Assembly (NCBI GenBank): GCA_018676675.1
Contig: JABHEG010000137.1
Coordinates: 22,227-86,226, forward strand
Direction: 5' to 3'
DNA length: 64,000 bases
Source of the DNA: Lentisphaerota bacterium
Lineage (GTDB): Bacteria; Verrucomicrobiota; Lentisphaeria; Oligosphaerales; JABHEG01
Shown here: positions 60,553 to 64,000 of the stretch, in pieces
Layout of the letters: each line of letters opens with the position of its first letter
How positions within the stretch are numbered: position 1 is the stretch's first letter
Translations under genes and position numbers: made by a program
The notes under the pieces: model-generated
The model's database searches: none
What the model was told of the DNA's origin: nothing
The model's input: the letters and a program-made list of their open reading frames with translations, nothing else

Positions 60553-60585
60553 CTCAGTCGCTCGTCTGAAACTCCGGGCTATCTG

Positions 60586-60617
60586 TCAGAGCCGCGACTT
60601 CCTACGGGAGCGGTTGT
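60586..60617. repeat. Intergenic repeat-like sentence
   Basis: TCAGAGCCGCGACTTCCTACGGGAGCGGTTGT; partial echoes at about 45786 (ACCGAGCCGCGGCTCTGAC) and 60628 (ACCGAGCCGCG). Confidence 0.4.
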
Positions 60618-60770
60618 CTTTGCCTGAACCGAGCCGCGCACAACGTAAGCGGTCTTCCCCGCTCAACATGGAAAGCCCCCTCCCCAGTTGGTCAGGGCTC
60701 TGCCGGAGCCGAGCTGCGTCCCGCCGCCGCGCATACGCCTCAATCCAAGCCGTAACTCATTGCAGCAGAA

Positions 60771-60830
60771 GGCACGGGGCTCTGCCCCAAGACCCCGCCG
60801 GGGAAGAAACTCTCCCCCGGACCCCGCGTG
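60771..60830. repeat. Imperfect palindromic G/C-block intergenic element
   Basis: GGCACGGGGCTCTGCCCCAAGACCCCGCCGGGGAAGAAACTCTCCCCCGGACCCCGCGTG; multiple nested GGGGC..GCCCC and CCCCG..CGGGG stems. Confidence 0.5.
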
Positions 60831-61087
60831 CTGGTGTCGCGAACGCCAGGTGACCAGGCCCACCTGACCTTCGCGCCCCCGGTAGCCGCCGCTCGCGCGA
60901 CGGGCGCCCACGTAGACGGTGGCCGTGACACCATCGTCTGTCGTAATGTATTACACTGTCCAAGAATAGGTTGCGCCTCAGCTTGATGCGAATGCGCGAC
61001 TCACGGAAGCGAACTTCCTGTGCCTGGGCCCCGCCTGGGGCCGCCAAGATGCTGAACAGAAGGGCGCCAACTCGGCATCCCTTCCAC

Positions 61088-61192: not shown

Positions 61193-62026
61193 TCATTCCT
61201 GGTCCTGAGGATTCGCGTGCTCCTTCCGACCTTCCTCCCTCCACCAGTCCTGCCAACGCTTGATGTAGGGCTCCTCGTCCTTCAGGAAGACGGGCTTTCC
61301 CGGAGCCCAGTCGCCTTCTCGCCCAAACGTCTCTGCGAGCCCCATCAGACATTGGTATCTGACGTCCTGATCAGCATCTTCGAGCCCGGAGACGAGACCA
61401 GGAACTCCCCCGCGGAGCGATATGAAGTCATCGAGCGAATCCCAGAACTCAGAGGAGGAGGGTTCGAGTTCCGCCAGCGAAGCAATCAGGAGCGACTCGA
61501 TACATTTCTCTACGTCTTGCTGGTCCGGGATCTTCCCGAGGAGGCGGGCTACAGCCCCCGAATCTCCAATACGGATCACGGAGTGCCAGTAGTTTGCGGG
61601 CCTGTACCAGTCCTCGCCATCCCGCGGCTCATTCAGGAACAGAACAACAGTCTCGCCCGGGGCAAGTTCCTCCGGCGTCTCACCGGCAGGCAAGGCACCT
61701 GCTTCCAGAGCTCCGAGGTGCTCCACCACGATGTTGTCATCTTGAGTCCTCCCTTTGAGCACTCGTTCAACCGCCATCCCAACGCGACGACGACTGAATC
61801 TCGTTACCGCCCCATCCTTCACAAAGGTAATCTCCTGGCCTCCAGACTGTTCCGAGCCGACTTTCCCACAACGACCGTCTCCGAACCGGCACAGACCTCG
61901 CGGAGCCCCATCTCTGGCGCATAGACTGGCAGGCGAGGGTGACGGGCTCGCGCCGGACGTGGGAACGTGGCAATCTCGCCCCGGCGCAGTTTCGCTGACA
62001 GTTCCTGCCCCTCCTTCTCCCACCAA
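61193..62026 (-). CDS. Second copy of the tandem HEAT-type protein, in the -1 frame relative to the upstream copy; homology begins about 61861 (possible pseudogene or frameshift-expressed module)
   Basis: ...GLEDADQDVRYQCLMGLAETFGREGDWAPGKPVFLKDEEPYIKRWQDWWREEGRK matches GLEDTDQRVRHQCLMGLAETMDRGGHWGPGIELLEKDEQTYIKRWQDWWEKEGQ of the first copy. Confidence 0.65.
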   Translation of the reverse strand: MVGEGGAGTVSETAPGRDCHVPTSGASPSPSPASLCARDGAPRGLCRFGDGRCGKVGSEQSGGQEITFVKDGAVTRFSRRRVGMAVERVLKGRTQDDNIVVEHLGALEAGALPAGETPEELAPGETVVLFLNEPRDGEDWYRPANYWHSVIRIGDSGAVARLLGKIPDQQDVEKCIESLLIASLAELEPSSSEFWDSLDDFISLRGGVPGLVSGLEDADQDVRYQCLMGLAETFGREGDWAPGKPVFLKDEEPYIKRWQDWWREEGRKEHANPQDQE

Positions 62027-63096
62027 TCCTGCCAGCGCTTGATATACGTCTGTTCATCTTTCTCGAGGAGCTCGATACCCGGCCCCCAGTGCCCGCCCCG
62101 GTCCATTGTCTCAGCGAGTCCCATCAGGCACTGGTGTCTCACGCGCTGGTCGGTGTCTTCCAGGCCCGCGACGAGATCCGGGACGGCTCGTGCACATTTC
62201 GCTTCCCTGAGCACGCATGAAGCCCTCCAACGGACGAAGCCCTCCGGGTTCTTCAGGAGAGGGACGATGTACTCCTCAACCGTCGACTTGTCCTTCACGC
62301 ACATCAACCACGTGCTCACGCGCCTTTTCGCATCGACAACAGCTTTGTCTGACTCGTCGTCCTCTGTCAGAAACTCAACCGCCCGTTGGACAGAGGAGCG
62401 GTCCTCGAGCCGGAGAAGCATACCGAGAATCCAGCCTTTGATACGGGGATCCTGCGAGCGGTCAAGAACGTCCTTCAAGGTGGCAACCGACTGCTTGCCT
62501 CGCAGCGAGACCAGATCCTCCAGCGAGGTCACCATCTCGGAATAGGAACTGAGTTCGGGAAAAGACGTCGCCAGGAGTGAGGCCACGTAGTTCTCAGCAT
62601 CGTGTTGCTCCGGGCCTGTCGCGAGAAGACGAGTCACGGCCTCCGACTCACCAATGTGGATGACCGATTGGTAGTCGTTGACTAGCGTGTAGTAGTCCTC
62701 ACCCTCCTCGCGGTCATGGAGAAGAACCACATGCATCTCACCCGGGATGAGGTCCTCCAGCCTGAAGTAGGCACGTGACCCCATGCTCCCCCCCAGGTCA
62801 GGCACCCCCAGGAACTCCACCATGGTCCGGTCATGCTGGATCTTCCCTCTAGCGACCTGTTTGACCACCAATTCCGCCCGGCGAACACTGAATCTCAGCT
62901 GTCTGCCGTACTTTTCCCGCGTCGTTTCCCTTCCCGTGGCCTTCGCCCAGGAAACTCGTCCCACGACGATGATCTCTGCTTCTGCACAGGATTCCCGAAG
63001 CCCCGTCTTGGGCGCATGACTCGCCAGAAGGGAAGTCCCACCCAGCATGACTAGTCCGACCGACCACAAGGCCCTGATGCCCTTCTTTCCAGGCAT
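61819..63096 (-). CDS. HEAT-repeat-type secreted/envelope protein (first copy), reading into the start of the second copy
   Basis: MPGKKGIRALWSVGLVMLGGTSLLASHAPKTGLRESCAEAEIIVVGRV...; HEAT-like SVATLKDVLDRSQDPRIKGWILGMLLRLED; C-terminus PVYAPEMGLREVCAGSETVVVGK duplicates its own N-terminal module. Confidence 0.78.
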   Translation of the reverse strand: MPGKKGIRALWSVGLVMLGGTSLLASHAPKTGLRESCAEAEIIVVGRVSWAKATGRETTREKYGRQLRFSVRRAELVVKQVARGKIQHDRTMVEFLGVPDLGGSMGSRAYFRLEDLIPGEMHVVLLHDREEGEDYYTLVNDYQSVIHIGESEAVTRLLATGPEQHDAENYVASLLATSFPELSSYSEMVTSLEDLVSLRGKQSVATLKDVLDRSQDPRIKGWILGMLLRLEDRSSVQRAVEFLTEDDESDKAVVDAKRRVSTWLMCVKDKSTVEEYIVPLLKNPEGFVRWRASCVLREAKCARAVPDLVAGLEDTDQRVRHQCLMGLAETMDRGGHWGPGIELLEKDEQTYIKRWQDWWEKEGQELSAKLRRGEIATFPRPARARHPRLPVYAPEMGLREVCAGSETVVVGKSARNSLEARRLPL

Positions 63097-63142: not shown

Positions 63143-64000
63143 CTAATACTCCTGCCGCCGGGCATGGTTTGTATAGTAGACCCATTCTCTCCCGAAACCC
63201 CACACTCCCTTTCCCGAAGCGGTGGGACCGATGTAATGGTCCCCGTGAAACCCCACCACTTTGAGCGCGGGAGGAACATCGGGGGTCGTTGTGGTCGGGA
63301 AGGAGTTCGATCCCGCGAGCCTACCGAGGTAATCCACATCCGCCGCCGGGTAGAACATGCCGCTTTCCGGGGAGATTGGGGGCCAGTTGTTGGGGTAGTA
63401 AGGTAGGGAAGCTCCCCACACTTCATTGTACTCCACGTTGTGCGGAAGCACCTTCGCTAACTGGTCACGAATCTCAAGGAGGTGGTTGGACACGTATCCT
63501 TGGCGCCCGCCCACGATCCACGAATGGTCGGTTACGTTCAGCTCATTCTCTACCCACGGCATCCTGACTGTCAAATGAGTCGTCCAAGTCTTCCCACCGT
63601 ATGTAGCAGTGACGGTAACGTTGTCCTTGGTGGCAGGCGGGGGACCCTTGCTCTTCAGCACAATGGTTCGGTCGGTTTCACTTGTCTTGACCACTGGTCC
63701 TTCGTATGTCCAGACGCAGCTTCCCGTATCTGGGCCAACCAATCTCACGGTGGTCTCCTTAATATACTTCGTCGCCTCCCCGCCATTGAACCACCATATC
63801 TCTTCATGATCGGCCACGAGTTCAGCGACTGTTACATGAACGCTGCTCACTGAAACGAATCCGTCTTCGCGATCCTCTTTCTCTCCCAGCGGAATGACGG
63901 CGTCATCGTCGACTTTGACGCCAATGACCGTGTCGTTGCTGCTGGCGCTAACCCAATCGGCAACCCAGTCTACAGTCTCTCCCCAATCCGTTCCGTCTAG
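63143..64000 (-). CDS. Partial CDS (N-terminus beyond the window), unknown secreted/surface-like protein
   Basis: Frame stays open from 63143 to the window edge (DWGETVDWVADWVSASSNDTVIGVKVDDDAVIPLGEKEDREDGFVSVSSVHVTVAEL...). Confidence 0.6.
   Translation of the reverse strand, partial: LDGTDWGETVDWVADWVSASSNDTVIGVKVDDDAVIPLGEKEDREDGFVSVSSVHVTVAELVADHEEIWWFNGGEATKYIKETTVRLVGPDTGSCVWTYEGPVVKTSETDRTIVLKSKGPPPATKDNVTVTATYGGKTWTTHLTVRMPWVENELNVTDHSWIVGGRQGYVSNHLLEIRDQLAKVLPHNVEYNEVWGASLPYYPNNWPPISPESGMFYPAADVDYLGRLAGSNSFPTTTTPDVPPALKVVGFHGDHYIGPTASGKGVWGFGREWVYYTNHARRQEY

Follow-up and report, generated by a model that had tools for sequence, protein, structure and literature searches.

A two-copy HEAT-repeat gene on the minus strand of the 64,000-nucleotide stretch of Lentisphaerota DNA analyzed here (the window) is interrupted within its second, rearranged copy by a one-base frame break, and an in-phase G_GGA_AAG heptamer sits at the break. 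We favor the possibility that the gene genuinely lost one base in a G/A run of a fused duplicate and that the heptamer is a by-product of that loss; we consider this probable, and infer from it that the motif goes unused. The case is an ordinary one-base frame break, in which the slip motif is real and its use unproven.

The first copy (61980..63096; coordinates are those of the window and, for the gene, of the minus strand) is of secreted type and consists of an N-terminal module (SHAPKTGLRESCAEAEIIVVGRV...), HEAT repeats and a YIKRWQDWW C-terminal motif, in that order. It starts at ATG 63096, with GGAG upstream. As the initial annotation had stated, its reading frame continues without a stop into copy 2, and we found it open as far as a TGA at 61821-61819. 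Between the copies lies a Pro/Ala/Arg-rich linker (61931..61979, approximate limits). On the linker side, GC content by codon position over 61868-61969 is 0.68/0.79/0.59, unlike the coding sequence elsewhere in the gene, and inspection of all frames of the linker by eye revealed no hydrophobic stretch or lost signal peptide. Aligned to copy 1, copy 2 begins in the zero frame at 61864..61930 (VYAPEMGLREVCAGSETVVVGK) and its remainder, in the -1 frame, runs to a stop (61193..61863). The same alignment gives copy 2 neither a start nor a signal peptide of its own, and the remainder lacks about 105 aa of the HEAT repeats of copy 1. Copy 2 looks dispensable because these parts are missing, although these losses are in frame and may have come before the break at no cost to function. 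Upstream of the gene is an open-ended reading frame of at least 285 aa (63143-64000, minus strand) that is cut by the contig end and has no match in Pfam, NCBIfam or PHROGs.

At the junction the zero-frame codons are GTG GGA AAG (61869-61861), so that GGGAAAG at 61861..61867 reads in phase as G_GGA_AAG, precisely as had been annotated. This run has one base fewer than its counterpart in copy 1, and a blastn comparison of the two copies placed a single one-base gap here (GTGGGACGAG / GTGGGAA-AG); the deletion that the initial annotation offered as its alternative is thus a correct description of the difference. Beyond the heptamer the zero frame continues as a tail, SARNSLEARRLPL (61819..61860), that has no homology to copy 1 and ends at the TGA. 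The -1 frame reads KVGSEQSGGQEITFVKDGAVTRFSRRRVGMAVERVLKG... from the junction and stays open for 222 codons, with no additional stop or frame break, and is about 48% identical to copy 1. Over columns 0-12 past the switch, BLOSUM62 sums were +18 for the -1 frame and -3 for the zero frame, which upholds the earlier claim that homology leaves one frame and resumes in the other at the heptamer; homology locates the switch to within about 7 codons, and at most 14.

The -1 frame still resembles coding sequence. Its GC content by codon position is 0.69/0.43/0.66, compared with 0.65/0.42/0.72 for copy 1, and under a codon model trained on the window it scored 0.157 compared with 0.163. The break is probably recent because the score remains so coding-like. 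Where the copies differ, the pattern is of purifying type (pN/pS 0.29-0.57 across blocks), but this ratio mostly records the time before the break and cannot be used to date it.

The probable scenario is that a secreted HEAT-repeat gene was duplicated in tandem, that the duplicate was fused in frame to copy 1 and that the second module then lost one base in a G/A run encoding Gly-Lys. Translation would proceed through copy 1 and the linker into copy 2, of which it would read roughly 21 residues before it ends at the TGA at 61819; the product would be copy 1, intact, followed by a junk extension, and the rest of copy 2 would be a young pseudogene fragment. Consistent with this idea, we see both a small indel relative to an intact homologue (the one-base gap) and further lesions or lost expression signals (the start, signal peptide and HEAT repeats noted above), as is expected of an indel pseudogene. 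The heptamer would be what remained once a base was lost between the Gly and Lys codons.

One point against a deletion is that only about 0.3-3% of random deletions should leave an efficient heptamer in phase where the base was lost; another is that the -1 frame has acquired no other stop or frame break in its 222 codons. Such a heptamer is unusual at any given codon: the window has 16 in-phase X_XXY_YYZ sites (Y=A/T) among 18,566 coding codons. Of simulated one-base deletions, 0.3% overall created one at the lesion, as did 0.8% of those in a run of three or more bases and 2.8% of those in a run of exactly four. The coincidence is notable, but heptamer and deletion are not independent events when the base is lost from a G/A run. 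Removing one base from a Gly-Lys G/A run gives rise directly to G_GGA_AAG and, because the lesion here lies in just such a run, the chance at this spot exceeds the simulated averages. Even a perfect slip heptamer at a frame break therefore counts for less than one might suppose. The prior for recoding is low: the 206,991 predicted frame-broken genes included 146 recoding clusters, transposases in many cases (PMC3711429), and orphan singleton frame breaks are expected to be gene overlaps in 33% of cases and, in 67%, sequencing errors or mutations by indel (Antonov et al. 2013, PMC3711429).

While a deletion in a decaying fused duplicate is the most likely explanation, an assembly or sequencing error comes next. 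One base of the G/A run would be wrong, and the true gene would encode an uninterrupted two-module secreted protein. We regard this as fairly unlikely. In its favor, the genome is a fragmented draft of 390 contigs with 8.1% contamination, the junction is 2.1 kb from a contig end, and copy 2 combines purifying-type differences with the absence of any further lesion past the junction. Against it: (i) the run is short (GGGAAA); (ii) the window has no other frame break, and its sole break falls in a duplicate that was already rearranged; and (iii) in the genome, none of the best 150 of 290 candidate sulfatase domains is interrupted, a sample biased to good matches. Indel errors seem rare given the last two observations. 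A search with tRNA-synthetase families returned two matches, both full-length and uninterrupted. Of the window's 12 same-strand coding junctions only this one breaks the frame, the remaining 11 being ordinary stop/start overlaps; together with the uninterrupted sulfatase domains this suggests that the assembly is accurate, which favors a deletion that is real and struck a dispensable duplicate. A real deletion and an assembly error would look alike in the assembled sequence. The sulfatases are an observation in their own right: the 14.1 Mb draft genome holds at least 150 strong domains (PF00884; the best 150 of 290 candidates), two of which, among the matches listed, are on the same contig as the gene (C81:22657-23742 and C81:65993-66916).

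The initial annotation had read the heptamer as a -1 slip site. In this scenario tRNA-Gly and tRNA-Lys would slip from GGA AAG to GGG AAA, in a programmed or leaky fashion, and a minority of ribosomes would make the two-module protein, with a trans-frame junction peptide spanning VVVGK|VGSEQSGGQEITFVK. There is precedent for the motif: G_GGA_AAG is reported to be highly shift-prone in E. coli and is listed for a viral g-t gene (review PMC5009743), and it is found in IS elements, where a GGAG 6-17 nt before the second base of the motif is accepted as a stimulator (PMC4066793). Here the phase is correct, no more than a few codons separate the heptamer from the homology switch, the -1 frame resembles coding sequence and is homologous to copy 1, and a GGAG (61879..61882) that could act as a stimulatory Shine-Dalgarno is found 11 nt upstream. 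At this spacing 7.6% of random codons are preceded by a GGAG by coincidence, and 19% by any SD-like motif. A stem-loop or pseudoknot downstream is usual in -1 frameshifting, but is not always present in bacteria. We found no stem-loop by folding that leaves pseudoknots out of account; the 71 nt downstream of the heptamer gave z=+2.2, and the 60 nt downstream (spacers of 5-10 nt) were less structured than 98-99% of the 60-nt windows of the gene. An Rfam search gave no match above threshold. Moreover, the gene is neither a mobile element nor prfB or dnaX, where most of the known bacterial cases reside (PMC3711429), the module that is broken was already a rearranged duplicate, and among the genomes and contigs searched we found no relatives that could show conservation. 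What stands of the slip-site reading is thus the motif, its phase and a weak upstream GGAG; programmed use finds no support beyond these, the downstream sequence being unstructured and the duplicate rearranged. We consider -1 slippage at this site improbable, and our estimate for programmed or useful shifting, which is a judgement and not a computed posterior, is equally low. It is similarly doubtful that this chromosomal, non-mobile gene for a two-module HEAT-repeat protein uses slippage at the heptamer inside its second module, so that a small share of the exported protein gains that module. A programmed shift would be rare for an ordinary chromosomal gene and would here control the number of modules in an exported protein.

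The initial annotation missed a second signal close by. A GTG in the -1 frame overlaps the zero-frame TGA (GTGA, 61819..61822) and is preceded at 9 nt by AGGAG (61832..61836), so placed, 5-10 nt upstream, for only 1.2% of random ATG/GTG codons. The whole arrangement (61836-61819) is a possible reinitiation site. Ribosomes stopping at TGA 61819 might restart at GTG 61822 and translate roughly the final 209 residues of copy 2 into a protein of their own; termination-reinitiation is described as general in bacteria (PMC6728339), and translational coupling is a known source of apparent frame breaks (PMC3711429). The downstream protein would not be complete, however. GTG 61822 falls within the N-terminal module, where the sequence is homologous to copy 1, so a restart there would produce a cut domain; copy 1 has no equivalent of this signal, and an overlapping start is not rare once a TGA stop is given. 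Because a product starting within this module would have no export signal, we rate reinitiation low as a function and regard this explanation as very unlikely. It would nevertheless mimic -1 frame expression in a reporter. Transcriptional slippage was rejected, as the longest run is three bases.

Downstream of copy 2 is an interspersed repeat of about 270 nt (60728-60998, minus strand) with imperfect terminal inverted repeats (60728-60761 and 60965-60998; 34 nt, 74% complementary); in another copy of the element, L036, these are 78% complementary over 32 nt. Counting the copy in the window, the 14.1 Mb genome has 43 occurrences of the repeat (E<=1e-10), in both orientations and mostly with 70-90% identity, and looks like a MITE family. 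Adjoining it is a short repeat unit (about 60558-60718) that recurs elsewhere in the genome as closely spaced groups of copies, contigs C6, C137, C206, C249 and C291 being examples.

Searches for homologues in the gene's own genome, the 60 nearest genomes (none of them from the same family), 198 genomes of the class and 388 of the phylum returned only weak HEAT-repeat matches or matches below 20 bits. Pattern scans of GTDB genome contigs and viral contigs found no relative either, and the genomes and contigs searched thus offered none in which conservation of the heptamer or the frame could be compared. HEAT and alphaRep were the only names returned by sequence searches of Pfam, NCBIfam, PHROGs and PDB, with one NCBIfam match of 14 bits that was far under its cut-off, and an AlphaFold model was poor (pLDDT 44). 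The N-terminal module common to both copies (GLRE.CA..E..VVG) matched nothing in Pfam, NCBIfam or PHROGs. Given the lack of a family match and of a clear relative in these genomes, the module (within 61193-63096) appears, as judged from sequence, to be an orphan of the lineage.

With regard to known systems, copy 1 is like other HEAT_2 proteins (PF13646; E=1e-8, 35.8 bits, above the curated cut-off), whereas the -1 frame of copy 2 (16.1 bits, below the cut-off) has too few repeats left to pass and the N-terminal module lies outside the families. The systems that use G_GGA_AAG for -1 frameshifting, namely viral tail g-t genes such as that of HCTV-5 and some members of the IS1 and IS3 families, are alike in heptamer, phase and overlapping downstream -1 frame, and in the upstream GGAG, here a possible stimulator. 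Our gene differs from them in that it is neither a phage nor an IS gene, has a rearranged duplicate downstream and shows no downstream structure and no evidence of conservation. The indel pseudogenes and singleton frameshifted genes of GeneTack (Antonov et al. 2013, PMC3711429) offer a comparison in which ours is also a singleton and an orphan, with a one-base break in a duplicated and otherwise coding-like sequence, and differs in carrying a canonical slip heptamer at the lesion.
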